This document shows positions 3,687 through 19,819 of a stretch of 64,000 bases of DNA, in pieces; within the stretch, counting starts at the first letter, position 1; each line of letters opens with the position of its first letter. Both the position numbers and the translations under genes were made by a program. Under the pieces are notes generated by a model, which was not told the DNA's origin, made no database searches, and saw only the letters and a program-made list of their open reading frames with translations. The stretch is from Candidatus Kutchimonas denitrificans (lineage in GTDB: Bacteria > Gemmatimonadota > Gemmatimonadetes > Palauibacterales > KS3-K002). The DNA lies in NCBI GenBank assembly GCA_011774835.1, contig JAACAK010000120.1, positions 1 to 64,000 on the forward strand, in the 5' to 3' direction.

Positions 3687-5234
3687 TTACTGTTGACTTG
3701 AACCTTCCACTTCGCGCCGTTGGGCGCGCCATACGACCAGCACCCCCAGCCCCGCGGTGACCAGCATCGCCAGCACCGGCGAGACGTATACGGTCTTCGG
3801 GGTCGGCTCCTCCAGGTAGATGGAGTACCACGAGCTCACCGCCATCTGCGCCCCGCTCTCGCCGTTCGAGCCGTCCCAGGCGAAGAACGCGATCGGGATC
3901 GCCACGCCGGAGCGGAAGCTCAAGGTCGTCGCCGTGTCGGCGGCGGCCAGCGGCCGTTGGAACACCACCGTCCAGGCACCCGCCTCCCATTCGGCGGCCG
4001 CGCTCAGATCGCCGCCATCGAGAGGCGCCCGGGTACCCAATCCGCTGGCCCACGCTTCATGGGCCCCGGCGTCGCTGCTCCACTCCCACAGGTAGACCGG
4101 GCGCCGCGAGTCGCCCATCAAGAAGTAGGGCCGTTCGCGACCGGTCGGTATCGCCGTCGGGAACTGGACCACCAGCCGGTCCGGGAGAAGCGCCGTCGGC
4201 TCGGCCTCGGGGGCCGGCTGCACCGTCTCCGCCACCCAGCCCTGCCACTCGAGCCAATCGGGATCCGGGCTCTGCGACGGGTCGTGCCAGGTCACCCGCA
4301 GGGCCAGCGTCGCTCCGTCGTGTAAAGCTCTTATATACAGACCATCGACCCCGGGCGCGAACCAGCGGGGCTGCTCGATGATCTGACCGACCAGCGGCAC
4401 ATAATAGGGCGGCACGGCGTTCCAGGCCGAGTCGTCGGCTGCCGCCGGCACTCTCCCCTCGACACGCCGGGCGGCGATCACGTCCCGGACCCGGGGCCGT
4501 TCAGGCGGCGACAGGCTGCGCACGTAGGCCGCCAGGTACCACATCTGCTCGTCGGTCATGAAGCCCGAGTCGATGAGATCGGAGAACGATGGCATCGGCG
4601 TTCCGTCCATGCCGGTGCGGAGACGGCGGTAGATGTCCTGGACGCGGCCGCCGCCGTTGAAATTCCAATTCTCGCTGAGGTCGGCGGCGCGGATCGGGAA
4701 ATCCAGGTCGTCCTGCAGGGTGGGCGCCGAGGGGCCGTCGCCGCGGCCCCGGTCGCCGTGGCACTTCCAGCACTCGATCTGCTCGTAGAGCCGTCGGCCC
4801 TCGGCCAGCGCCTCGGCATCCGCGCCGGGGCGGTCCCCGAACTCCAACGGCTCCGGGGCGCCGAAGAGCTCGAAGAAGTCGGAGAAGTCCTTGATGTAGG
4901 CCACCAGGTCGCGGACCTCGTCGTCGCTGAACTTCGACTCCCACCCCGGCATCGCGGTGCCCGGCATCCCGTCCTCGATGACCCGGACCAGGTCCGCGTC
5001 GGTGGGCAGCTCGCCGTTGGCCGTGGTGCGGATCTGGTAGAGGCCGGTGGTGAAGTCCCGGGGACGCGGCATCATGTAGGCCGCCGCCGAGCCTTCGCCG
5101 GCGCCGTCCGTGCCGTGGCACTCGGCGCACCAGCGGTCGTAGAGCTCCCGGCCGCGCTCGGTATCCTGCGCCAACGCGGGGGTAGCGATCCACCACAGGG
5201 CCAATCCGAAGGCGATCGTCGCGGCCCTAGTCAT
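3687..5234 (-). CDS. Diheme c-type cytochrome fused to an EB_dh-like (ethylbenzene dehydrogenase gamma-type) heme-binding domain, C-terminal TM
   Basis: 515 aa; CAECH and CWKCH motifs; C-terminal half resembles NxrC/EbdC-type gamma subunit fold; C-terminal hydrophobic helix VSPVLAMLVTAGLGVLVVW. Confidence 0.75.
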   Translation of the reverse strand: MTRAATIAFGLALWWIATPALAQDTERGRELYDRWCAECHGTDGAGEGSAAAYMMPRPRDFTTGLYQIRTTANGELPTDADLVRVIEDGMPGTAMPGWESKFSDDEVRDLVAYIKDFSDFFELFGAPEPLEFGDRPGADAEALAEGRRLYEQIECWKCHGDRGRGDGPSAPTLQDDLDFPIRAADLSENWNFNGGGRVQDIYRRLRTGMDGTPMPSFSDLIDSGFMTDEQMWYLAAYVRSLSPPERPRVRDVIAARRVEGRVPAAADDSAWNAVPPYYVPLVGQIIEQPRWFAPGVDGLYIRALHDGATLALRVTWHDPSQSPDPDWLEWQGWVAETVQPAPEAEPTALLPDRLVVQFPTAIPTGRERPYFLMGDSRRPVYLWEWSSDAGAHEAWASGLGTRAPLDGGDLSAAAEWEAGAWTVVFQRPLAAADTATTLSFRSGVAIPIAFFAWDGSNGESGAQMAVSSWYSIYLEEPTPKTVYVSPVLAMLVTAGLGVLVVWRAQRREVEGSSQQ

Positions 5235-6054
5235 GACCGCCCTCCGCGCCCGCTTCGCCCTCGTGCTCCCACGTCCGCGGCGTCCAGCCGGTCTGCTCGT
5301 ACAGGAAGATCGTCACCGCCCAGATCTCGTCCTCGGTGAGGATCGGCTCCCAGGCCGGCATCGCCGAGTTCCACGGCGTCCCCTCCGTGGGCAGGCCCGG
5401 GCCGCCCTTGGCGATCCGCCAGAAGACGAAGCTCTCGGTCAGCTGCGGGATCGTCCCGTTGTCGGTGAACGCCAGCGGCGGCGGGTTGAAACCGTGGGCG
5501 TAGTGCCCGTTTCCGTCCAGCAGGTCACCGTGGCACGGCAGGCAGTTCCCGTAGTAGACCCGTTTGCCCACCTCGTAGTCCTCCTCGATCGACCCGTCGG
5601 CCCGCAGCGGGTTCTCCAGCCCGGTGAGCCGGATCGTGCGGCCGCGGAAGCTGATCGACGTCGGGGGCGCCGGGTGGATCGAGCGCAGCTGGACCGGCGC
5701 CGCCACGCCGGGCCGCACCTGGCTGTAGGTCAGCCAGCCGACGGCCAGCGGGACCAGGACCAGGAGCGCCGTGCGCAACCAGCGCAGGCCGGGATCGACC
5801 AGCAGCGTGCCCACCGGCTCCTTGAACCGTTTCCAGCGCTCCTCGTTGTCGCTGACGTAGATCAGGATCCCCACCGCCGCGGTGATCAGATACTGGAGGA
5901 GCACGCTGTCGGGGATCGGAGCGCTCCGCACCCCGAACAGAGGCGGCAGGTAGGCGACTCCGAACTCGAACACGATATACGCCGCGACGAGCAGCGCGAT
6001 CGCCAGCCAGAAGGGGTGCCGGAGGTAGTCTCTCAGACGGTTCACGTGGGTCAC
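5227..6054 (-). CDS. Membrane-anchored c-type cytochrome
   Basis: 275 aa; N-terminal TMs, single CLPCH motif; overlaps the next gene start by a few bases. Confidence 0.88.
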   Translation of the reverse strand: MTHVNRLRDYLRHPFWLAIALLVAAYIVFEFGVAYLPPLFGVRSAPIPDSVLLQYLITAAVGILIYVSDNEERWKRFKEPVGTLLVDPGLRWLRTALLVLVPLAVGWLTYSQVRPGVAAPVQLRSIHPAPPTSISFRGRTIRLTGLENPLRADGSIEEDYEVGKRVYYGNCLPCHGDLLDGNGHYAHGFNPPPLAFTDNGTIPQLTESFVFWRIAKGGPGLPTEGTPWNSAMPAWEPILTEDEIWAVTIFLYEQTGWTPRTWEHEGEAGAEGGHD

Positions 6055-6845
6055 CGTTGCTGGGCCAGGAAATCGACTAGCGCCTCGAGCTGGGCCGCGG
6101 TCATCCGCTCGCCGAAATCCGTGGGCATCAGGTTGGCGAACGCCTCGTAACCCGCGCTCACCTCCACCCGCGGGTCGAGGATCGACTCGCGGATCGCCGC
6201 GGCGTCCAGCCGGGCGCCAACGTCGGTGAAGGCCGGGCCGATGGCGGTCCCCTGGCCGTCCAGCTGATGGCAGGCCAGACAGCCGAACTCGTTCAGCAGC
6301 TGCCGCGGGTCTCGTGTCGACGGGGCGGTAGCGGCCGCCGCCGGTGCGGCGGACGCGGCTGTCGCCGCCGAGCTCGCACCGACCAGGTCGTCGGCCGTCA
6401 CCGTCACCACGCCGCCCTGCGCCTGGAGAAACGCGACCAGCGCCCAGATCTGGTCCTCGGGCAACGTGCGGTCCGCGTCGGGCATGATCGGGTTGTACCC
6501 GTCGACCACGTAGCTCCCCGGGTCGGTGAGCGATGTATAAAGGTACGTCTTGCAGTCCTGGTCCGGCACGCGGTCGCCGCAGCGCGCGCCGATGGGCCCC
6601 AGGCCGTCTGTCGACCGGGTCAGGTTGGGCGCCCGGGTGCCCAGCCCATGACAGGCCGTGCAGCCGCCGGCGCCCCCGAAGATCCGCTCGCCCGCCGCGA
6701 CCAGCTCGGCCGCCGACGCGTCCGCCGACAGCGCCAGCTCCTCGGGCACCTCCGACTCGATCTGCGGGATCATGTTGGCGATCAGCGTATAGCCGGCCAC
6801 CGTCAGGACGACGACGATGGCGATCTTCAGGTTGGTCATGAACAT
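6051..6845 (-). CDS. Diheme c-type cytochrome, N-terminally anchored
   Basis: MFMTNLKIAIVVVLTVAGYTLIANMIPQ...; CTACH and CLACH motifs; the ORF track extends upstream to 8327 but the ATG at 6845 is the plausible start. Confidence 0.88.
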   Translation of the reverse strand: MFMTNLKIAIVVVLTVAGYTLIANMIPQIESEVPEELALSADASAAELVAAGERIFGGAGGCTACHGLGTRAPNLTRSTDGLGPIGARCGDRVPDQDCKTYLYTSLTDPGSYVVDGYNPIMPDADRTLPEDQIWALVAFLQAQGGVVTVTADDLVGASSAATAASAAPAAAATAPSTRDPRQLLNEFGCLACHQLDGQGTAIGPAFTDVGARLDAAAIRESILDPRVEVSAGYEAFANLMPTDFGERMTAAQLEALVDFLAQQR

Positions 6846-6862: not shown

Positions 6863-8647
6863 TCAGTCGCCCGCCGGCTGCGGCGACAACCCCACCGCTT
6901 CGCTCGTCGCCCGCGCCAGCGCCGGCTTCTCGATCAGACCACCGATCCAGAAGACGAAGGAGACGATCGCCAGGAATATCAGGACGCAGGCGCTGATAAC
7001 CACGCCGGCGTAGCCGAGCGCCGGCGTCGCCGCCCACTGGCTGGTGTCGCGCATCACCTCCCAGATGTGCCAGTGCTGACGGATGCCGCTGCGGGCGAAG
7101 CCCATCAGGCCCATCAGCCAGGTGAACGTCACCGCCAGGATGATCAGCGTGTACTGCGAGCGCGGCGGCATCCGCCCCCAGCGGATCGCGCCGCGGGACT
7201 CGGCCCCGCGCAACATGAACAGGTCGACGGCCAGCACCACGACCATCGCCGCCAGCACAGTGAGCACCTGGTAGACGCTGAACCCGATCCGCACGATCGC
7301 GGTGACGAAGTAGCCGTAGATGCCGTAGAAGATCACCACCGCCGCCGCCAGCCCCAGCACGCCACCCTGCACGATCGTCCCCTGCCGCGACCAACTCACG
7401 GCCGGCCGCTTGTTCGCCCGCCGGTAGAGCAGGAACGACAGGAACGTCGTCAGGATCATCAGGTTGACCGCCGTGTTCTTGGCGCTCATCACGCCGAGCA
7501 CGCCGAGGAACGGGTGGTGCGTGCCGCCCATCGCCGCCAGCTCCTCCCGGTTGGCGATCATGGTGTGCGGCGTCGCCCAGACGATCACGCCGATGATCAG
7601 CACCAGCAGCATCCACTTCGTATATGGCGTGAACCGCTCCGCGCCGGGAATGCGTCCCATCCCCACCCACAGGTAGTAGTTGCCGGCCAGAAAGAGCACC
7701 CCGATCAGGAACGCCTGGATGATCCAGAGCCAGCTCATGAAGCCGCCCATCATCGTGATGCCCATCGCCTGGTTGTACTCGTAGATCTCGCGGCCCAGCC
7801 AGTAGCCGGCGAACGGCAGCACGATCAGCGCGCCGATGGCGATGAAGTTGCCGACGTAGCCCATCCAGTCGTAGTGCCGGCGCTCGTCCTCGCTCCGGGC
7901 GGCGAGGAATCGGTAGGCGGCGTAGGCAGCGACGATCGAGCCCCCGAACACCACGTTCGCGATCAGCCGGTGGATGTTGATCGGCATCCACGTCGCGTTG
8001 GCGAACGCGCTCCAGAACTGGACCTGCGCCGGCGCCGTGTCCGCCGTCACCTCGGCCGGCGGGCTCATCATGTAGCTGAGCCAGCTGTCGGCGATGAACA
8101 GTACCGCGGTGCCCCAGACGTTGAGCAGGATGCCCAGCGACCAGTGGAAGATCTTGGCGCGCCCTTCCTTCCAGCGCTCCCAACCGTAGTAGTAGATATA
8201 GAGCGTCGCCGATTCGACGAAGAAGAGCCCCACGTAGACCCAGATCGAGGTCTCGAAGATCCCGGTCAGGTGCGACATGAACCGCGGGTAGAGGGTGATG
8301 AGCAGGAAGGTCAGTGTCGCGCCCCACAGCGCCGTGGCGCTATAGGCGATGAGCAGCAGACGCGTGAACTCCTTCGAGAGCCGGTCGTAGCGCGCGTCCT
8401 TACCGAAGATGCCGATCGCTTCCGTCACCACCGCGAACATCGGCACGCCCAGCACGAAGGCCGCGAACATCAGGTGCACCTGGGCGGCGATCCACACCGC
8501 CGCCCGGCTGCCGATGACCGGGAAGTTGCCGTACTCGCGTATCCCTTCCGCCGCCTGCGCCCAGGCGGGGTCCGCCGCCGCCAGGACCAGCGACCCCGCG
8601 CCGACGACCAGCCCGGCCGTCCGCAGGGCGTCTCTCCCACTCGTCAT
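6863..8647 (-). CDS. Cytochrome bd oxidase subunit I-like (CydA-like) multi-TM protein
   Basis: 594 aa; AAVWIAAQVHLMFAAFVLGVPMFAVVTEAIG, WMPINIHRLIANVVFGGSIVAAYAAYRFLAARS; no neighbouring cydB; no GRQPW-type Q-loop motif found by eye. Confidence 0.85.
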   Translation of the reverse strand: MTSGRDALRTAGLVVGAGSLVLAAADPAWAQAAEGIREYGNFPVIGSRAAVWIAAQVHLMFAAFVLGVPMFAVVTEAIGIFGKDARYDRLSKEFTRLLLIAYSATALWGATLTFLLITLYPRFMSHLTGIFETSIWVYVGLFFVESATLYIYYYGWERWKEGRAKIFHWSLGILLNVWGTAVLFIADSWLSYMMSPPAEVTADTAPAQVQFWSAFANATWMPINIHRLIANVVFGGSIVAAYAAYRFLAARSEDERRHYDWMGYVGNFIAIGALIVLPFAGYWLGREIYEYNQAMGITMMGGFMSWLWIIQAFLIGVLFLAGNYYLWVGMGRIPGAERFTPYTKWMLLVLIIGVIVWATPHTMIANREELAAMGGTHHPFLGVLGVMSAKNTAVNLMILTTFLSFLLYRRANKRPAVSWSRQGTIVQGGVLGLAAAVVIFYGIYGYFVTAIVRIGFSVYQVLTVLAAMVVVLAVDLFMLRGAESRGAIRWGRMPPRSQYTLIILAVTFTWLMGLMGFARSGIRQHWHIWEVMRDTSQWAATPALGYAGVVISACVLIFLAIVSFVFWIGGLIEKPALARATSEAVGLSPQPAGD

Positions 8648-10332
8648 TCGCCGCCGCCGTTTCCCTCCGCCGCCCGTCGGTCTAGCATCTCCTGCACCTC
8701 ACGGATTGGGCACTTCGAGCCGCCGGCCTCGCTGAACGTGCCTTGGGCGCCCTCGGCGCCGGCACGGATCTCCCGGGCCCGCAGCTCGCTGAACATCACC
8801 ATCATCGTCTCGACGTCGAACGTGTCGGCCTCGATCATCGCCTGCTTGTTCTCGTCCATGACCTGGACCGTCACGTGCTCGGCGTCCCGGCTCTTCGCGA
8901 AGCGCTCCACCGTCGACCGGGCCAACGGTCGGGCGATCAGCGGCACCAGCTCCAGCCGCTCCCACGCCTCCTTCGACCACGTCACGCCGCCCCGCGCCCG
9001 GGCCCGCGCCGCCTCGCGGTCGCTGCCCATCGGGCACATCGGGACCGGTCGGTCCGCCAGCGCCTCCTCCGCCTTCACCTCCGCCCGGGCGATCTCCTCC
9101 GCCTGGCCGATCCCCATCACCAGCTGCATGTGGGTCGGCAGCAGCGACCCTATCGCCTGGTCGAGCAGCTCGTTGGTCACGACATCGAACCCGCGCTCCT
9201 CGACCCACTCCTCCACCGCGTTGCGGGCGATCCCCTGGGCGAACGGCGGTACCCGCTGAATGCGGACGGCCGCCAGCGGGTCCCACTCGAGGCCCGCCAC
9301 CCCGTCCTCTTCGATCCACGGCACATCCTCCGGCCGCACGTCCACCGTGCCGGTCAGCAGGACGTCGCACGGCGCCAACCGCACCAGGTTCTCCACCTGC
9401 GAGCCCATATCCGTGCCCTCGATCCGGTGCGAGCCGTGGCGCGCGAGCACCAACAGGGTCGGCTCCAGCTCCTCGATGTATTCGAGGATGCTCTCGAACG
9501 GCTTGCCGATCAGAACCTGCGAGCCCGTCTCGACTTCGGGGTAACCCTCGGCCATCTTCTCGGCCCGCATCAGGTTCGCCTTGCACAGCTTGAGCAGGCC
9601 CTTGTCGATGATGTTGTTGTGCAGCTCCTCCTGCTCCTCGAACTTGAACACCCGACTGGCCTGGTAGCTCAGCACGTCCTTGATGTTGTTGAACGCGATG
9701 TGATGGAAATCGAGGTCGAAGGCGCTGCAGAACTCCACCCGCGCTTCGAACTCGCGCGCCAGCTCCAGCGCGACCCGCGCCGCACGGTAGCTGTACGAGC
9801 TCCCATCCACGCACACCAGGTAGACCCCGTCCCGCAGCGGCCGGTCGGTCCGTGTAATCAGCAGATCCTTCTCCAGCCGCCGCATCACCCGCGACACTAC
9901 ACCGCCCAGCTGCGAATGCGGCTGACGGCCCAGGCCGTGCGCGCCCATCGCGCACAGGTCGTAGCCGTTGCAGTTCACCTCCCGAGCGATCTCCTCGAAG
10001 TGGATCCCCTCCAGCAGCTGCCGCTTCATCTTGACGCCCGCCGCCTTCACCTGCTCCTCCATCCGGTCCAGGAACGAATCGCTGATCAGCTGCAGGCCCT
10101 TCTCGATCAGTTTGTCGTGAATCTTTCGCTGACGCTGGATCTCCTCTTTCGGCTGGAAGCGGGCGGGCAGGCCGGATTCGAGCTGGCGAAACCGCACGTC
10201 GTGCAGCTTCGCCGCGTAGACGTGGTTGCCCACCACGCCGGCCTCGCACTTCCGGGCCAGCTCGATGGCGCGGTGAATCGCGTAATCGCACTCCTGCGAG
10301 TTGTCACAGGGAACGAAGACCTCTCTGTACAT
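8644..10332 (-). CDS. Tandem universal-stress-protein (UspA) domains fused to a C-terminal PCP_red-like domain
   Basis: 562 aa; YREVFVPCDNSQECDYAIHRAIELARK and VYLVCVDGSSYSYRAARVALELAREFEARVE Usp starts; C-terminal VTWSKEAWERLELVPLIARPLARSTVERFAKSRDAEHVTVQVMDE. Confidence 0.85.
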   Translation of the reverse strand: MYREVFVPCDNSQECDYAIHRAIELARKCEAGVVGNHVYAAKLHDVRFRQLESGLPARFQPKEEIQRQRKIHDKLIEKGLQLISDSFLDRMEEQVKAAGVKMKRQLLEGIHFEEIAREVNCNGYDLCAMGAHGLGRQPHSQLGGVVSRVMRRLEKDLLITRTDRPLRDGVYLVCVDGSSYSYRAARVALELAREFEARVEFCSAFDLDFHHIAFNNIKDVLSYQASRVFKFEEQEELHNNIIDKGLLKLCKANLMRAEKMAEGYPEVETGSQVLIGKPFESILEYIEELEPTLLVLARHGSHRIEGTDMGSQVENLVRLAPCDVLLTGTVDVRPEDVPWIEEDGVAGLEWDPLAAVRIQRVPPFAQGIARNAVEEWVEERGFDVVTNELLDQAIGSLLPTHMQLVMGIGQAEEIARAEVKAEEALADRPVPMCPMGSDREAARARARGGVTWSKEAWERLELVPLIARPLARSTVERFAKSRDAEHVTVQVMDENKQAMIEADTFDVETMMVMFSELRAREIRAGAEGAQGTFSEAGGSKCPIREVQEMLDRRAAEGNGGGE

Positions 10333-10659
10333 GGATCCCTCGGTGCCCAGGGTTCTTCAGGAGATCCGCGAGCGAATCACCTGTTGGATGTTGCCGGCTT
10401 GTCTGTGTTCCATGCCACAGCAGAAGGCGGGAGGCTCGCGGCGAGCTTCCCGTTCATGACTCGGTTCTGTTCTCGACCCGGCTCCCGGCCTCCGTGGTCG
10501 TCGGGGGCGAGGGGCGAAGCGACACGGAGCGATCCCGATCTATGCAAAAACCGATAACAGGAATTATTATCGCGGATTACAACCGAGCGAGTATAGCTGG
10601 CCTTACCGGCGGCTGTCAACCAAACCGCGCAACCGGGTTTCGGTTCGACCACCGGCCGC

Positions 10660-10911
10660 TCAGGCCTCCGGGGCCAGCTGGGTGCCGTCCTCCCCGAAGA
10701 TGAGGATCGCGCTGACCGGACAGGATTCGGCCGCCCCGACGAGCGCCTCGAGGGGCGGCTCCTCGAGGTCGACCAGGACGGCCAGGTTGTCCTCGTTCAG
10801 TTCGAAGGCATCGGGCGCGGCTTCGACGCAGTCGGCGAAGCCGGAACACAGCTCGTGATCGATCTGCAGCGTGACGGCGTGTGCTGCCGAGACCTTTTCG
10901 TGCAGCGTCAT
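10660..10911 (-). CDS. Small ferredoxin with three candidate cluster cysteines ([3Fe-4S] type)
   Basis: 83 aa; CSGFADCVEAAPDAF ... ESCPVSAI. Confidence 0.88.
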   Translation of the reverse strand: MTLHEKVSAAHAVTLQIDHELCSGFADCVEAAPDAFELNEDNLAVLVDLEEPPLEALVGAAESCPVSAILIFGEDGTQLAPEA

Positions 10912-10923
10912 GTCCTGACCTCC

Positions 10924-11346
10924 TCACATCTCCTCGATGCCCAGCTGGGCCCGGGCCTCGTCCATCACCGTCAGGGTTATCTCGCTGAGCCCGCGCTCCC
11001 GGGCCCACTCCATATAGAGTTTTCGCACTGTGCCGCGGACGAAACCGGGTACGCGGCCCAACCGTTTCTCCGCTTCGTCGCTCCAGACCGGGTCGGGGCC
11101 CGACGGGTCCGGATGGCGGGTCTCGAGATGAGAGCGAACCGATTCGAACGGCTGCGCTTCGGCGGCGCTGTCGCTGAGGTCGACGCAGAGGCTGTCGACC
11201 ATCCGGGTCTCCATCGGGTTGGTGAGCATGGCGACCTGGCGATCGCAATTCGGACAGCGGAACGTGATCGCCATCGTCCCGTCACCCGGCGCGGCGCTCT
11301 CGACCGACTTCATCTGCGCGTCGCAGTCCACACAGAGAAACTTCAT
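10924..11346 (-). CDS. Zinc-ribbon protein with C-terminal PCP_red-like domain
   Basis: 140 aa; MKFLCVDCDAQMKSVE...FRCPNCDRQVAML (two CxxC); C-terminal WSDEAEKRLGRVPGFVRGTVRKLYMEWARERGLSEITLTVMDEAR. Confidence 0.82.
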   Translation of the reverse strand: MKFLCVDCDAQMKSVESAAPGDGTMAITFRCPNCDRQVAMLTNPMETRMVDSLCVDLSDSAAEAQPFESVRSHLETRHPDPSGPDPVWSDEAEKRLGRVPGFVRGTVRKLYMEWARERGLSEITLTVMDEARAQLGIEEM

Positions 11347-11357
11347 CTAACCTTACC

Positions 11358-12260
11358 TCACGATCCGTTTTCGTAGAACTGCCGGACCGCCCGCGCCAGA
11401 TCACGAACCGCCCGGGCCGCCGGGGCGTCGGGGCGCCCGAGCACGTCGGGGCGTCCGGCGTCGCCCTCGGCGCCGAAGCGCGGGTCGAACGGCACGGCGG
11501 CCAGGCGCGGCACCCCCTCGAACGGCGCGGCCTCGGTGCTGAACAGCGGGCCGATCCGGCCGCAGTCCGGACAAAGGTAGCCCGACATGTTCTCCACGTA
11601 GCCGACGATCGGGATCCCCAGCTCTTTCACCATGGTGAGCGACTTGCTCACCACGAAGCGCGACAGCTCCGACGGGATCGTCACGGCCAGCGCGCCGCCC
11701 AGCCCCGGAAGCAGGTCGTGGACCGGCGCGATCCGATCGGTCCCGGGCGGAAGATCCAGGATCAGGTAGTCCAGGTCGCCCCACGCCGTATCGGACAGGA
11801 ACTCGCGCAGGGCGTTCGCCTCCAGCGTGCCGCGCCACAGGAAGCTCCCCGACTCGGTTCCGCGCCAGCGGACCGGGCTGTCGGGGCCTTCCAGCCACAA
11901 ATCCATCGACATCACCTTCACGGCCGCCGCCCCGACGGCCGGCGCTATCCCGTCTCCCTCGACCCGGAGCGACGATCGTTCGACACCCAGCAGCCGGGGC
12001 ATCGACGGGCCGTTGAGATCGGCGTCGAGCACACCGACTGACGCACCCTGGTCCGCCAGACACGCCGCCAGGTTCGCGGCGATCAGGCTCTTCCCCACAC
12101 CGCCCTTGCCGCTCAGAACCGCCAGCGTATGTCGGACCCCGGCCAGTCGGCGCTCGAGCCGCTGCCGCCGCTCGGCCAGCTGGCCGGCGATATCGGCGGC
12201 CGTCCCCTCCGTCAGCTCGGCGTACGTGCGCCGCCGGTCGGACGGACTCACAGATCCCAC
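11358..12260 (-). CDS. Mrp/NBP35/ApbC-type P-loop ATPase (Fe-S carrier family)
   Basis: 300 aa; deviant Walker A VLSGKGGVGKSLIAANLA; ENMSGYLCPDCG CxxC. Confidence 0.93.
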   Translation of the reverse strand: MGSVSPSDRRRTYAELTEGTAADIAGQLAERRQRLERRLAGVRHTLAVLSGKGGVGKSLIAANLAACLADQGASVGVLDADLNGPSMPRLLGVERSSLRVEGDGIAPAVGAAAVKVMSMDLWLEGPDSPVRWRGTESGSFLWRGTLEANALREFLSDTAWGDLDYLILDLPPGTDRIAPVHDLLPGLGGALAVTIPSELSRFVVSKSLTMVKELGIPIVGYVENMSGYLCPDCGRIGPLFSTEAAPFEGVPRLAAVPFDPRFGAEGDAGRPDVLGRPDAPAARAVRDLARAVRQFYENGS

Positions 12261-12685
12261 GCCGCCCGGGCCAGCATCCAGGCGGCCACCGCGGTGACCA
12301 GGAACGGCCCCAGGAAGAACCCCGTGTTCGGCTGCGCGAACAGGTAGATCGCCCGGATGAAGACGACGATGGCCAGCGCCATCGTGAACCAGCGCACCTG
12401 TCGCCAGATGAAGAAGGGGAAGCCCACCGTGATCAGGAACCCGATCGGAATCAGAACCCAGGCGGCGACCCGCGGATAGCCGTGCAGGTTCCAGTCGCTG
12501 CGGACGCCCATGGCGACGATCCGGGACAGATAGAACGCGCCGTAGCCGAAGTAGACGACGGCGGCCTGACGATACTTTCGCGTCCGGGGATCGAGGCTCG
12601 AACTCTCCGCCGGGCCCACGGCGGTCTCACTCACCGACTCCATGATCGGCCAGCGTAGAGGCGTACCGGCCGTCGTGTCAAGCAT
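12248..12685 (-). CDS. Small multi-TM membrane protein, unknown function
   Basis: 145 aa (or start at M 12643); several hydrophobic segments; overlaps both neighbouring genes. Confidence 0.7.
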   Translation of the reverse strand: MLDTTAGTPLRWPIMESVSETAVGPAESSSLDPRTRKYRQAAVVYFGYGAFYLSRIVAMGVRSDWNLHGYPRVAAWVLIPIGFLITVGFPFFIWRQVRWFTMALAIVVFIRAIYLFAQPNTGFFLGPFLVTAVAAWMLARAAWDL

Positions 12686-14030
12686 CGCCGGGCGGCGTCG
12701 CGTCGTCTTCGACGCCGGCGCCGCTTTCGGCCTCGAGCATCTTCCGCACGAACGACGGGACGTTGCCGATCCGGCCGCTCAGCGTCCGCTCCCGCACCTC
12801 CTGCATCAGTTCGGCGGTCACCTGCGGCTGGCCCCGTTCGGCGGCGTAGCTCTCCATCCGCTTCGCCAGCATGCCGCGAACGAACGACGGGACTCGTTCC
12901 AGCCGCGCTCGCGCCTCCGCCGTCCACGGCAACGTGCCGTCCAGCTCCATCCCGTAGGTCGTCTTCCCCGCAAAGCTGATCGGCTCGAACCCGTAGGCGC
13001 CGGGCTCGTACACGCACCACGGGTCCTCCGCCATGAAGTCCCCCGTCGCACCGTACGCCCGGGCCCGACAGCCGCCGCAAACCGAGTTGAACTCGCACGC
13101 GCCGCAGCGCCCGCCCAGCGTCTTCCGCCGGCGGATGCGCTGAAAGACGTCGGACTCCTCCCAGATCTCCCGGAACGACCGCTGGCGCAAGTTGCCGCCG
13201 TATACCGGCAGGTAGGGGCAGGGCGTCATGTCGCCGTTGGGACGAATCCCCAGGTAGTGCGTGCCGGCGGGACAGCCGCCGGCCCCGGCGGCAAAGCTCT
13301 TCAGGAAAGGCGAGTCCGGGTCGTTCTGGTAGAGCATCCGCTGGTAATGGGGCGCGCACTTCGAGTTCACCAGCATCCGGCCGGCGAACTCCTCCTGCAG
13401 CTTCATCAGCTCAGCCAGAGTCTCCTCGTACTCGTCGGCCGAGATGTCGCTGGTATACGCACCGCGTCCGGTGGGCACCAGGAAATAGAGGTTGTAGACG
13501 CGGGCCCCGAGCTCGTGGGCGAAGCGGGCCAGCTCGACGATCGAGTCGCGGTTGTGCCGCCCGATCGTCGTCTGGACGATGAACGGCAGGCCCGCCGCTC
13601 TCAGTACCTTCGACCCCTCCACAGTGTTGTCCCAGGCGCCCTGCACACCCCGGAAGGCATCGTGGGTCGCCGCCTCGAGGGAATCGAGGGAGAGGGCGAC
13701 GCCGCGGATGCCCGCTTCGATCATCCGCCGGCACAGCTCCGGCGTGATCAGCACTCCGTTGGTCCCCACCACCACCCAGAGCCCCTTCGAGTTGGCGTAC
13801 GACGCGATCTCGAACACGTCCTTCCGCAGCAGCGGCTCACCGCCGGTCAGGATCAACAGCGCTTCCGGGTTGACCTCGCAGATCCCGTCCACCACCCGGA
13901 GACACTCCTCGGTCGACAGCTCGTCCCGCGCCTCGCCCTTCGAGATGCGACCGGCGCTGATGTAGCAGTGCTCGCAACGCAGGTTGCACTTCTTGGTCAG
14001 GTTCCACGAGATGACATGACTGCGGTACAT
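12678..14030 (-). CDS. Radical SAM/SPASM enzyme (AhbD/NirJ-like) with C-terminal PCP_red-like extension
   Basis: 450 aa; CNLRCEHC; SPASM-like CGACEFNSVCGGCRARAYGATGDFMAEDPWC; tail WTAEARARLERVPSFVRGMLAKRMESYAAERGQPQVTAELMQEVRERTLSGRIGNVPSFVRKMLEAE. Confidence 0.9.
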   Translation of the reverse strand: MYRSHVISWNLTKKCNLRCEHCYISAGRISKGEARDELSTEECLRVVDGICEVNPEALLILTGGEPLLRKDVFEIASYANSKGLWVVVGTNGVLITPELCRRMIEAGIRGVALSLDSLEAATHDAFRGVQGAWDNTVEGSKVLRAAGLPFIVQTTIGRHNRDSIVELARFAHELGARVYNLYFLVPTGRGAYTSDISADEYEETLAELMKLQEEFAGRMLVNSKCAPHYQRMLYQNDPDSPFLKSFAAGAGGCPAGTHYLGIRPNGDMTPCPYLPVYGGNLRQRSFREIWEESDVFQRIRRRKTLGGRCGACEFNSVCGGCRARAYGATGDFMAEDPWCVYEPGAYGFEPISFAGKTTYGMELDGTLPWTAEARARLERVPSFVRGMLAKRMESYAAERGQPQVTAELMQEVRERTLSGRIGNVPSFVRKMLEAESGAGVEDDATPPGDA

Positions 14031-14151: not shown

Positions 14152-14832
14152 ATGCAGAAACCCGGACTCTCCACCCTCGTGCTGACCTCGATCGGCCTCC
14201 TCTTCGCGGCACTCGTGGTCGTGCTGATCGTCAGCAGCCTGGTGCGGCCCAGCGTGCGGGAGTTCGCTCCCACCGCCCCGAACCCGGAAGCGGTCGGCGA
14301 GCGGTCGGTGGGGCCCCGGCTCTATACCGTCGACGCGACCGCGCACGACCGCTGGGTCTACTTCGACTTCTCCCGCGGCTCCGTGGTCGATGTCGATTCG
14401 CGTCGTTCGCTCGATTGGGACCTCGCCTTTCAGCGGCACCGGATGATCAGCAACGGCGGCGACACGAACCCGGCGGGCCGAGGGGCCGTTGCCGACCTGG
14501 GTCCGATCCGCATCGACTCGGCGCTGACCGTGCCGGAGGACGACTGGACGACCGACGAGGGACGGGGCGACACCCCGCGCAACCCGGTCCTCGAGGACTG
14601 GTACGACTACAGCTGGACCTCGCACATCCTGCGACCCGCGGACCGCGTGCTGGCGATCCGCACCGCCGACGGCCGTTACGCGGCCCTCCGGTTCGTCGGC
14701 TACTACTGCCCCGGCGGCCGGCCCGGCTGCGTCAGCTTCGTTTACCGCTACCAGGGGGACGGGTCGAAGACGTTCGCGCCAGCGGCCGCCAGCGCCGCCG
14801 ACTCCGCCGCAAACGGCACCGCCGCAGGTTGA
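14152..14832 (+). CDS. HmuY-like putative heme-binding exported protein
   Basis: 226 aa; N-terminal TM/signal; VDVDSRRSLDWDLAFQRHRMISNGGDTNPAGRGAVADLG resembles the HmuY core. Confidence 0.6.
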   Translation: MQKPGLSTLVLTSIGLLFAALVVVLIVSSLVRPSVREFAPTAPNPEAVGERSVGPRLYTVDATAHDRWVYFDFSRGSVVDVDSRRSLDWDLAFQRHRMISNGGDTNPAGRGAVADLGPIRIDSALTVPEDDWTTDEGRGDTPRNPVLEDWYDYSWTSHILRPADRVLAIRTADGRYAALRFVGYYCPGGRPGCVSFVYRYQGDGSKTFAPAAASAADSAANGTAAG

Positions 14833-14904: not shown

Positions 14905-16002
14905 GTGATCGGTGCCGGTGAGTTAGCGGGCGGGCGTGGCCGGCGTTTGCTCAACCCCATTTACTATACGATCGTGATCGTCAGCTCCGCCCTCCTGGGG
15001 TGCGGGCAGGACTATCCTCAGAGCACGATCGATCCGGCCAGCGGGGACTTCGGGGCGGCGATTCACAGTCTCTACCAGACCGTGTTCTGGTGGACCATGC
15101 TGATCCTCGCCGTCGTCTGGGGGGTCCTCGGCTGGGTGCTGTTCCGCTACCGGGCCCGGCCGGGCGGACCGGAGCCGAAGCGGATCCACGGCCACCTGGG
15201 ACTGGAGATCGGGTGGACGGTGGGCGCCGCGATCATCGTGGTCCTGATCACGATCCCGACGATCCATACCGTGTTCCAGACCCAGAGGGAGGCCGGTGAA
15301 GACGCCCTGGTCGTCGAGGTCATCGGCCACCAGTGGTGGTGGGAGTTCCGGTACCCCGAGCAGGACGTGGTCACGGCGAACGAGCTGCACCTGCCCGTCG
15401 GCCGGCAGGTCGACCTGCGTCTCTGGTCGGCGGACGTGATCCACTCGTTCTGGGTCCCACGGCTGGGCGGCAAGCGCGACCTCAATCCCCTGGTCCGAAA
15501 GCCCGACGGCAGCCTGGCGATCAACCGCCTGACCTTCACGGTGGACGAGGCGGGGACGTTCATGGGGCAGTGCGCCGAGTTCTGCGGACCGGCCCACAGC
15601 CTGATGGGCCTGAGAGTGATCGCCGCGCCGGAGCCCGAGTTCGAGGAATGGGTCGAGCGCATGAAGACGCCGGTGGAGCCGGACAGCGGCAGCCTGGCCG
15701 CCCGGGGTCGCGAGGTCTTCATGGGTGCCACCTGCGTCGCCTGCCACGCCATCGCCGGGACGAACGCCCGGGGTCGGTTGGGTCCGGACCTGACGCGGCT
15801 GGGCGCGCGGACGACGATCGGGGCCGGCCTGCTGGAGAACACGCGGGAGAACCTGGCCGCCTGGATCACCGCGCCGGCCGAGTTCAAGCCGGGTGTGAAG
15901 ATGCCGGGCGTGGCCGAGGAGGGCGGCGGTTTTCCGCCCACCGGCCTGTCGTCGGAACAGGTCGAGGCGGTGGCGGCCTACCTGGCGAGCCTCGGCCGGT
16001 GA
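14905..16002 (+). CDS. coxB: Cytochrome c oxidase subunit II with fused C-terminal cytochrome c (caa3-type)
   Basis: 365 aa; lipobox ALLGCGQ; CuA CAEFCGPAHSLMGLRV; CVACH heme motif. Confidence 0.96.
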   Translation: MIGAGELAGGRGRRLLNPIYYTIVIVSSALLGCGQDYPQSTIDPASGDFGAAIHSLYQTVFWWTMLILAVVWGVLGWVLFRYRARPGGPEPKRIHGHLGLEIGWTVGAAIIVVLITIPTIHTVFQTQREAGEDALVVEVIGHQWWWEFRYPEQDVVTANELHLPVGRQVDLRLWSADVIHSFWVPRLGGKRDLNPLVRKPDGSLAINRLTFTVDEAGTFMGQCAEFCGPAHSLMGLRVIAAPEPEFEEWVERMKTPVEPDSGSLAARGREVFMGATCVACHAIAGTNARGRLGPDLTRLGARTTIGAGLLENTRENLAAWITAPAEFKPGVKMPGVAEEGGGFPPTGLSSEQVEAVAAYLASLGR

Positions 16003-16038
16003 GTCGGCGAATCCACCCTTGTCATCAGGAGCCGTTGC

Positions 16039-17910
16039 ATGGCAGATGCGATAGCTAGCGAGAGGGGCCCGCAACGGGCCCACGCCGAGGGACACGGCGC
16101 GGCGGCTCTCTACACCGATCCGGGCGGGCTCTGGGCGACGATCCGCGGCTGGATCACCACGGTGGACCACAAGCGGATCGGCATCATGTACGCCAGCGCC
16201 GCGCTGTTCTTCCTGCTGGTGGGCGGACTGGAGGCGCTGCTGATCCGGGTGCAGCTGGCCGTGCCCGAGAACGACTTCATCGGCGCCGAGACGTACAACC
16301 AACTGTTCACCATGCATGGCACCACGATGATCTTCCTGGTCGCCATGCCGCTGGCCGTCGCTTTCTTCAACTACATCGTGCCGCTGCAGATCGGCGCGCG
16401 GGACGTGGCTTTCCCGCGTCTGAACGCGCTGTCGTTCTGGGTCTTCCTGTTCGGCGGCCTCTTCCTCAACTCGAGCTGGCTGTTCGGCGCCGCGCCCAAC
16501 ACCAGCTGGGTCGGCTACGCCAACCTGACCTCGGTCCAGTACTCGCCGGGCCTCAACGTCGACTTCTGGGTGATCGGCCTGTCGATCGTCGGGATCAGCT
16601 CGCTGATCGGCGCGATCAACTTCATCACCACGATCATCAACCTCCGCGCCCCCGGGCTGACGCTGATGCGCATGCCGCTGTTCACCTGGATGACCTTCGT
16701 CACCAGCTGGATCCTGGCGACGGCGATCCCGGTCATCGCGGTGGCGCTGATCTTCCTGGCGGCGGACCGCTTCTTCGCCACCAACTTCTTCGTGCCCGGC
16801 GCCGGCGGCGACCCGGTGCTCTGGCAGCATCTGTTCTGGATCTTCGGGCACCCCGAGGTCTACATCCTCATCCTGCCGTCGTTCGGCATCATCTCCGAGG
16901 TCGTGCCCACCTTCTCGCGCAAGCCGCTGTTCGGCTACCCGATCGTGGTCTACGCCGGCATCCTGATCGGCTTCATCGGCTGGGGCGTGTGGAGCCACCA
17001 CATGTTCACCACCGGGCTCGGGCCCATCGCCGACTCGTTCTTCGTGGCCAGCACGATGATCATCGCCATCCCGACCGGCGTGAAGATCTTCAACTGGCTG
17101 GCCACCATGTGGGGCGGCGCGCTCCGCTTCACCACGGCGATGCTGTTCGCCATCGGGCTGGTCGCCATCTTCACCATCGGCGGCCTGTCGGGGATCATGC
17201 ATGCCTCGGCGCCGGTCGACCTGCAGCAGCACGACTCGTACTTCGTCGTCGCCCACTTCCACTACACGATCGTCGGCGGCGCCGTCACCGGTCTGTTCGC
17301 CGGGTTCTACTACTGGTACCCGAAGGTGACCGGCCGCCTGATGAGCGAGACGCTCGGGAAGTGGCACTTCTGGACCTTCATCGTCGGGTTCAACCTGACC
17401 TTCTTCCCCCAGCACTTCGTCGGGCTCTTCGGCATGCCGCGCCGCGTCTTCACCTATCCGGCCGAGCTGGGCCTGGGGGGCTGGAACATGGCCTCGACGA
17501 TCGGAGCGTTCATCTTCGGGGTCAGCACGCTGATCTTCGTCTGGAACCTGATCCGCAGCGCCCGGCGCGGTACGCCGGCGGCGGCGAACCCCTGGGACGC
17601 GCCGACCCTCGAGTGGTCGGTGCCGTCGCCACCGCCGCACTACAACTTCGCCGAGATCCCCGAGGTCGAGAGCCGGGACCCGCTCTGGAAGGGGGCCGCC
17701 GCGGGACCCGACCGGGCCGTGGCGACCGGCGGCGATGAGCCGCACATGCCGTCGCCCTCCGCCTGGCCCATCCTGACGGCGCTGGGGATCAGTTTGACCT
17801 GGATCCTCCTGATGGCCCGGATCTGGTGGGTGCCGCTCATCGGCCTCGCCGTGACGGCGGTCTGCGTCTACTCGTGGGCGTTCCAGCCGGCGTTCCGGGC
17901 CGAGAGTTGA
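16039..17910 (+). CDS. coxA: Cytochrome c oxidase subunit I (second copy)
   Basis: 623 aa; VDHKRIGIMY, LLWQ-like VLWQHLFWIFGHPEVYILILP, VVAHFHYTIVGG. Confidence 0.98.
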   Translation: MADAIASERGPQRAHAEGHGAAALYTDPGGLWATIRGWITTVDHKRIGIMYASAALFFLLVGGLEALLIRVQLAVPENDFIGAETYNQLFTMHGTTMIFLVAMPLAVAFFNYIVPLQIGARDVAFPRLNALSFWVFLFGGLFLNSSWLFGAAPNTSWVGYANLTSVQYSPGLNVDFWVIGLSIVGISSLIGAINFITTIINLRAPGLTLMRMPLFTWMTFVTSWILATAIPVIAVALIFLAADRFFATNFFVPGAGGDPVLWQHLFWIFGHPEVYILILPSFGIISEVVPTFSRKPLFGYPIVVYAGILIGFIGWGVWSHHMFTTGLGPIADSFFVASTMIIAIPTGVKIFNWLATMWGGALRFTTAMLFAIGLVAIFTIGGLSGIMHASAPVDLQQHDSYFVVAHFHYTIVGGAVTGLFAGFYYWYPKVTGRLMSETLGKWHFWTFIVGFNLTFFPQHFVGLFGMPRRVFTYPAELGLGGWNMASTIGAFIFGVSTLIFVWNLIRSARRGTPAAANPWDAPTLEWSVPSPPPHYNFAEIPEVESRDPLWKGAAAGPDRAVATGGDEPHMPSPSAWPILTALGISLTWILLMARIWWVPLIGLAVTAVCVYSWAFQPAFRAES

Positions 17911-18955: not shown

Positions 18956-19024
18956 TGGGTAGTGGGTGGTGGGAACACGACGGATCACCCACCACCCACT
19001 ACCCACTACCCACTACCCACTACC
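18944..19024. terminator. 30-bp-stem inverted repeat built from gtagtgg heptamers between convergent coxD and ctaG; candidate bidirectional terminator
   Basis: ggtagtgggtagtgggtagtgggtggtggg (18944-18973), 14-nt spacer, exact reverse complement at 18988-19017, one further period to 19024. Confidence 0.75.
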
Positions 19025-19819
19025 GTAGCTCTCTTCGCTTCGATACCAGCGGAAGAATAGAACCGTGATCGCCGTCCAGAAGATCAGGCCGCCGCCGATC
19101 TTCATCAGCAGTCCGGCGAGCCGCTGGTCATCCCGAACGGAGAGGCCCGAGACCGGCGGCGCCAGCTCGAACGTCGCGTACAGGGGCAGGTTGCTGAACG
19201 TCAGGAAGGCGAAGGCGGGCGTGTTGAGTATGGTGGCCAGGATCAGGTAGCCGATCCGGTACATGTGCGAGAAGCCGGGCCGGCGCGGCACCGGCGCGAC
19301 CAGCGGCCACCAGAGCGCCAGCCCGGCCACGAGCCACGACATATCGAGAACGAACGAGCCCGGCTGCGAGACCATCAGTGCGTCCACCACGGACGGCCAG
19401 TGCGTCGTCAGCAGAACGACGTTGAAGATGGCGAGGGCCACCAGCGGATGGGTGAGAACGCGCAGCGCGCGCATCAGGTTGGGTCGGGCTTCCAGCCTCG
19501 CGTAGGCCTTCGTCGAAACGCCGTACAGCAGCAGCGGCGGCGCCACCAGCGAGATGAGGAGGAACTGCACCATGTGCGCGCTGGCCAGGTAGCCGGCCCC
19601 CAGCGCCCCCACCGGCCAGTCCAGCGCGACCCAGAGTCCCAGCAGGCCGCCGTAGAAGGCGATGCGCCGCAAAGTCCGCGGCCGCTCCGGGTCACGCCCG
19701 GTGCGCCGCTCCAGCAGCCAGTACGCGGCGCCCAGCGCCAGCACGAAGGCCCAAACGCCCGGGTACGGAGTCCAGCTCCACGTCCACGCCGCCGTCTGGG
19801 CCGAGCACCACCACTGCAC
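19013..19819 (-). CDS. ctaG: CtaG-like (caa3_CtaG) cytochrome c oxidase assembly membrane protein
   Basis: 268 aa; multi-TM, YLASAHMVQFLLISLVAPPLLLYGV, WWPLVAPVPRRPGFSHMYRIGYL. Confidence 0.85.
   Translation of the reverse strand: MQWWCSAQTAAWTWSWTPYPGVWAFVLALGAAYWLLERRTGRDPERPRTLRRIAFYGGLLGLWVALDWPVGALGAGYLASAHMVQFLLISLVAPPLLLYGVSTKAYARLEARPNLMRALRVLTHPLVALAIFNVVLLTTHWPSVVDALMVSQPGSFVLDMSWLVAGLALWWPLVAPVPRRPGFSHMYRIGYLILATILNTPAFAFLTFSNLPLYATFELAPPVSGLSVRDDQRLAGLLMKIGGGLIFWTAITVLFFRWYRSEESYGSG

Follow-up and report, generated by a model that had tools for sequence, protein, structure and literature searches.

A gene set rich in PCP_red domains accompanies a cytochrome bd-like complex in two phyla and is a candidate system for the maturation of its heme

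We found that a set of six genes, three of them encoding PCP_red domains, is inherited with and sits beside a cytochrome bd-like complex in two bacterial phyla. The set very probably constitutes an accessory system of this complex, and we somewhat favor the more specific reading that it is a dedicated heme-cofactor maturation system, including heme modification, the chemistry of which we infer from the enzyme families involved. As such, it probably makes or inserts the heme of the bd-like complex. An earlier note, based on the sequence alone, had proposed a porphyrin/heme-modifying or heme/Fe-S-insertion assembly for the cytochromes encoded downstream, an interpretation which our analysis supports in part.

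The set was recognized in a 64,000-nucleotide stretch of DNA, analyzed at its full length and referred to here as the window, from the Gemmatimonadota MAG of Candidatus Kutchimonas denitrificans (~87% complete). All its genes lie on the minus strand, and their 5' to 3' order is: rSAM-PCP (12678..14030, 450 aa), a radical SAM/SPASM enzyme nearest to AhbD/NirJ2; TM145 (12248..12685, 145 aa), a predicted small membrane protein with no family match in the domain scan, whose gene overlaps both neighbors; an Mrp/NUBPL-type P-loop ATPase (11358..12260, 300 aa) with Walker A and CPDC motifs; the zinc-ribbon protein ZnR-PCP (10924..11346, 140 aa); a ferredoxin-like protein (10660..10911, 83 aa); and Usp-PCP2 (8644..10332, 562 aa), composed of two Usp followed by two PCP_red domains. 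Next comes the gene of the cytochrome bd-like (CydA superfamily) membrane protein (6863..8647, 594 aa), which is probably the client of the set; three c-type cytochrome genes follow. The first of these encodes a membrane-anchored protein with two CxxCH motifs (6051..6845) and is co-conserved with the bd-like gene, the second a membrane cytochrome of 275 aa (5227..6054), and the third a 515-aa protein (3687..5234), in which two cytochrome c domains are fused to a heme b domain of the ethylbenzene-dehydrogenase/NxrC type and a C-terminal hydrophobic stretch. Several neighboring genes overlap by a few bases, including the Usp-PCP2 stop and the bd-like gene start (4 bases), and the 327-base gap between the ferredoxin and Usp genes (10333..10659, from coordinates) may perhaps hold a candidate second promoter. 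The region is flanked by two separate cytochrome c oxidase gene pairs (426-2835 and 14905-17910), with a CtaG-like gene at 19013-19819. The rSAM gene is adjoined by a divergent gene (14152-14832) for a conserved membrane-anchored protein of unassigned family, which occurs close to the set in about 24 relatives as well.

Searching the whole genome with the PF08369 (PCP_red) profile, we detected four domains in the region, all above the Pfam cut-off of 32.5 bits: in the rSAM tail (12792-12926, 61.5 bits), in the C-terminal part of the zinc-ribbon protein (10951-11085, 56.5 bits), at the C-terminus of the Usp protein (8845-8979, 45.7 bits) and, as a second internal copy, further upstream in the same protein (9154-9285, 38.9 bits). 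These four are the sole matches in the ~87% complete MAG, and whole-protein scans likewise placed rSAM-PCP, ZnR-PCP and Usp-PCP above the cut-off. The earlier note had recognized a PCP_red-like domain in three neighboring genes and aligned their cores without gaps; the three tails are indeed present in the translations, align as described and score 45.7-61.5 bits, while the fourth copy had been overlooked. The partial second copy that it saw in the rSAM tail receives no domain score, but the stretch does form a conserved tail motif, with P425 and F427 retained in at least 92% of relatives. The AlphaFold2 model of ZnR-PCP, the one copy of the four that was modeled, superposes its PCP part (pLDDT 93-95) at rank 1 on 2KRU, the NMR structure of the PCP_red domain of BchB, with an rmsd of 1.1 A over 52 columns, and a sequence search of solved structures with the zinc-ribbon protein led to BchB/ChlB chains. 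Our literature search found no paper on PCP_red outside DPOR nor a role for it within BchB, and returned a single mention of PF08369, as a phototrophy marker, namely as one of the most prevalent families by which putative phototrophs are identified (PMC12815261).

As for the probable client, the product of the downstream gene belongs to the cytochrome bd subunit I superfamily. It matches PF01654 (Cyt_bd_oxida_I) with 80.5 bits against a cut-off of 26.2, in its N-terminal half only, and its ten best PDB folds are all bd subunit I, with moderate target TM-scores of 0.42-0.59. The protein is extremely conserved among relatives: an alignment of 40 sequences shows no variation at H58, E145 and H226, and an equally invariant Y138 where the Geobacillus enzyme has Glu101. 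With respect to the Q-loop and the third b558 ligand (Met) of quinol-oxidizing bd oxidases (qOR), no alignment of its C-terminal half to solved CydA was obtained. Among Gemmatimonadota genomes, a cytochrome b of the bc1 type (PF13631, E <1e-30) is rarer with the set (9/51) than without it (64/150; p 0.001, uncorrected), which raises the possibility that complex III is in part replaced by the bd-like complex and its c-type cytochromes. The window's genome has both the set and a bc1-type cytochrome b.

The gene neighborhood proved strongly conserved in related genomes, as determined from about 60 named loci, nearly all of Gemmatimonadota and one labeled Rokubacteria. Two of the three outcomes that the earlier note had named as refuting, tails scoring below the HMM threshold and a neighborhood lacking conservation, were thus not observed. 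The usual order in these loci is Mrp, ZnR-PCP, ferredoxin, Usp-PCP, rSAM-PCP and bd-like, followed by two c-type cytochromes, an EbdC-type cytochrome, a cupredoxin-like protein, cox2 and cox1; in some loci the ferredoxin is placed before Mrp. The window represents a variant, in which rSAM stands at the 5' end and is followed by TM145 and Mrp. Four loci titled Gammaproteobacteria (L091, L092, L094, L099) resemble Gemmatimonadota in gene order and similarity and are probably old mislabels. In nine loci (L078, L084, L085, L086, L093, L096, L097, L100, L101) a CcmA-like ATPase, below the CcmA cut-off (89 vs 131.6 bits) and often accompanied by a CcmB-like permease, lies between ZnR-PCP/ferredoxin and Usp-PCP.

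Among 201 Gemmatimonadota genomes, most of which are MAGs or drafts where absence can be an assembly gap, the multi-copy set was detected in 53 and the bd-like gene (at ≥70% identity) in 51, and all 51 are shared. Thus, every bd-like-positive genome has the set and 51/53 set-positive genomes have the bd-like gene (hypergeometric P 8e-46, a value that ignores relatedness), with a PCP_red domain no more than 1 kb from the bd-like gene in 51/51. Of the two exceptions, one is a genome whose contig ends at the ferredoxin (G002), and the other (G053) carries a variant set: in L120:1-9644, Mrp, ZnR-PCP and directly after them rSAM occur with no bd-like gene, and a gene 6 kb off encodes a Usp protein that includes a zinc ribbon and three PCP_red domains. 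This variant set possibly has another client, or the contig is foreign. At least seven families, counted with part of the negative genomes listed, include both members that possess the set with the bd-like gene and members devoid of the latter. Nineteen further genomes show only one or two high-scoring PCP_red matches, which we read as BchB of phototrophs.

We observed the same association in the phylum of the Rokubacteria MAG, where the bd-like gene is present in 57/64 genomes with PCP_red vs 2/31 without it. Seven PCP_red genomes of this phylum have no detected bd-like gene, some perhaps through MAG gaps, and they count, together with the variant set of G053, against the maturation reading. 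Locus L144 displays the order Usp-PCP, rSAM-PCP, TM145, Mrp, ZnR-PCP, bd-like, which includes the rSAM-TM145-Mrp arrangement of the window, with the TM145 homolog in the same place. The L150 genome has a second bd-like gene (53% identity), which is accompanied by an Mrp, a ZnR-PCP and a three-PCP_red protein of its own; ahead of this paralog, L150:5335-13450 comprises the three-PCP_red protein, a cupredoxin-like gene, Mrp, ZnR-PCP and a U32-peptidase-like gene. In turn, a Chromatiales MAG encodes the Usp-PCP/rSAM-PCP pair on a separate contig from a divergent bd-like gene, which lies near Mrp, with a protoporphyrinogen oxidase gene (over cut-off) between the two. Linkage therefore lends good support to the earlier proposal of a function for the downstream cytochromes, and allows the bd-like complex to be singled out among them.

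What the set does for this complex is best approached through its radical SAM enzyme, the best models for which are AhbD (TIGR04545, 357.4 bits) and NirJ2 (TIGR04055, 333 bits), each below its cut-off of 500; NirJ (TIGR04051) follows with 188 bits against 515. By these scores, the enzyme appears related to AhbD and NirJ2 and a member of neither. Radical SAM enzymes of the AhbD/NirJ kind alter heme side chains, and either AhbD or HemQ catalyzes the final conversion of coproheme to heme b (PMC7242693). HemQ is encoded in 49/51 cluster genomes vs 45/150 others, and in the window's genome too, which indicates that the cluster genomes use the coproporphyrin route and makes the radical SAM enzyme spare for ordinary heme b. 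It could be argued that what the set makes for the bd-like complex is ordinary heme b, with the radical SAM enzyme as an H2O2-independent coproheme decarboxylase (the AhbD function) providing an on-the-spot supply at low oxygen, parallel to HemQ. AhbD being the best NCBIfam match, and AhbD and HemQ being known alternatives for the same substrate (PMC7242693), speak for this explanation; yet the enzyme scores 357 against the AhbD cut-off of 500, and a general heme b supplier is not expected to track one oxidase so strictly, so that we consider it unlikely.

Radical SAM/SPASM enzymes often modify peptides, and the enzyme of the set also matches several peptide-maturase models weakly, including PqqE and mycofactocin; both points weigh against the maturation reading. 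Combined with the extreme conservation of the bd-like protein, they would fit an enzyme that modifies a protein, e.g., the bd-like subunit or one of the cytochromes, where it would alter a residue or form a cross-link, with PCP_red as a plain protein-protein docking module. We regard this as rather improbable since no peptide-maturase model reaches even half the score of the AhbD and NirJ2 models, PCP_red has its known place in a tetrapyrrole enzyme, and the set includes no widely conserved small precursor ORF. Among ORFs of 22-75 aa in 64 loci, no conserved one was common to more than 11 loci, and the conserved small ORFs that we inspected resembled antisense shadows of the main genes; peptide maturation of the RiPP type was accordingly rejected.

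The domain scan upheld the earlier gene identities of Mrp ATPase, ferredoxin, Usp and radical SAM. The Usp protein matches PF00582, an ATP-binding family, with 122.8 bits, and in the zinc-ribbon protein C5, C8, C31 and C34 are invariant in 44 sequences. Two Usp domains, a zinc ribbon, a ferredoxin and a Usp gene overlapping the bd-like gene by 4 bases could also be read as a redox or stress sensor/regulator of the bd-like operon rather than a maturation machine. An NrdR-like fold of the ZnR model would point the same way, but was rejected, as the weak fold matches have an rmsd >12 A and are not meaningful; moreover, regulation leaves the AhbD/NirJ-like enzyme and Mrp unexplained and is very unlikely. 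The Mrp ATPase exceeds the cut-off of PF10609 (227.2 bits), and the CxxC of its CPDC motif (230-233) is retained in 42/45 relatives. Mrp proteins are carriers of Fe-S clusters. Ferredoxins carry electrons, and that of the set (PF13459, 39.6 bits) shows a CxxFxxC...CP pattern in 69/69 relatives, with a fourth Cys in 65/69 that is absent in the window's copy, a ligand pattern which suggests a [3Fe-4S]-type or atypical cluster. The earlier analogy to the DPOR parts list is weak, and a DPOR-like tetrapyrrole reductase, despite the PCP_red domain and P-loop ATPase common to both, was rejected as next to inconceivable, given that the ~87% complete MAG has only the four PCP_red domains of the set, none of them in a BchB-like protein, that a catalytic BchN/BchB core is missing and that the ATPase is of the Mrp/NUBPL type, matching the NifH/BchL family (PF00142) only at E 0.0067.

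Of the two activities considered earlier, heme modification is favored over general Fe-S insertion into the cytochromes because no Fe-S domain appears among the Pfam matches of the bd-like and c-type subunits, the radical SAM enzyme is nearest to heme-modifying families, and heme-pathway genes are nearby in some relatives. The latter, HemA, HemB or HemE, score over cut-off beside or inside the set in 12/63 longer loci from about five independent lineages, a limited spread which also counts against the maturation reading. In soil Gemmatimonadota, the set is preceded, at a distance of a few kb, by a gene for an NfuA-like Fe-S carrier with a GGCQGC motif (L057:1827-2441 and 12 other loci).

In the heme-maturation system that we propose, Mrp would supply or keep the Fe-S clusters in the radical SAM enzyme and the ferredoxin would feed electrons to it. 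The AhbD/NirJ-like enzyme would then alter side chains of a heme precursor, most likely coproheme, or of heme b. The PCP_red domains could form a common module, either holding the tetrapyrrole or docking the partners, and thereby allow the product to be handed on to the bd-like subunit, and Usp and ZnR may act as scaffold or regulatory parts. It is further possible, though doubtful, that the bd-like complex has an undescribed heme derived from coproheme or heme b via rSAM-PCP, and that PCP_red is a general tetrapyrrole-handling module common to photosynthesis (BchB) and this respiratory system.

PCP_red, treated so far as a marker of chlorophyll synthesis, is now linked to respiration, and concrete candidate genes are at hand for the cofactor of a widespread, biochemically uncharacterized bd-like complex. 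Two questions would become testable, namely which heme these oxidases carry and what the role of PCP_red is. The occurrence of four copies in genomes without BchB is a warning for the use of PF08369 as a phototroph marker.

Compared with known systems, the domain studied here is the same as the C-terminal PCP_red of BchB/ChlB (PF08369; 2KRU, 2YNM) by HMM score and predicted fold, but its four copies sit on non-BchB proteins in a genome without BchB. The bd-like protein resembles in sequence features the OR-N/OR-C type of CydA, a type reported from Nitrospirales and Nitrospinota that still awaits experimental confirmation (PMC10839748, PMC12342949): the CydA-like N-terminal half, H58/E145/H226 and adjoining c-type cytochromes are shared with the proteins of Nitrospira and Nitrospinota, while none of the papers found describes this gene order with a PCP_red set. 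The radical SAM enzyme has the radical SAM and SPASM architecture of the AhbD heme b synthase and NirJ2, its best-scoring models; unlike them, it falls below both equivalog cut-offs, has a PCP_red tail, and its gene sits with an oxidase rather than in a heme b or d1 operon. Similarly, the ATPase shares the P-loop, the CxxC and, over cut-off, the Pfam family of the Mrp/ApbC/NUBPL Fe-S carriers, and differs from known Mrp/ApbC proteins in scoring below the MrpORP and ApbC equivalog cut-offs and in belonging to a conserved set.
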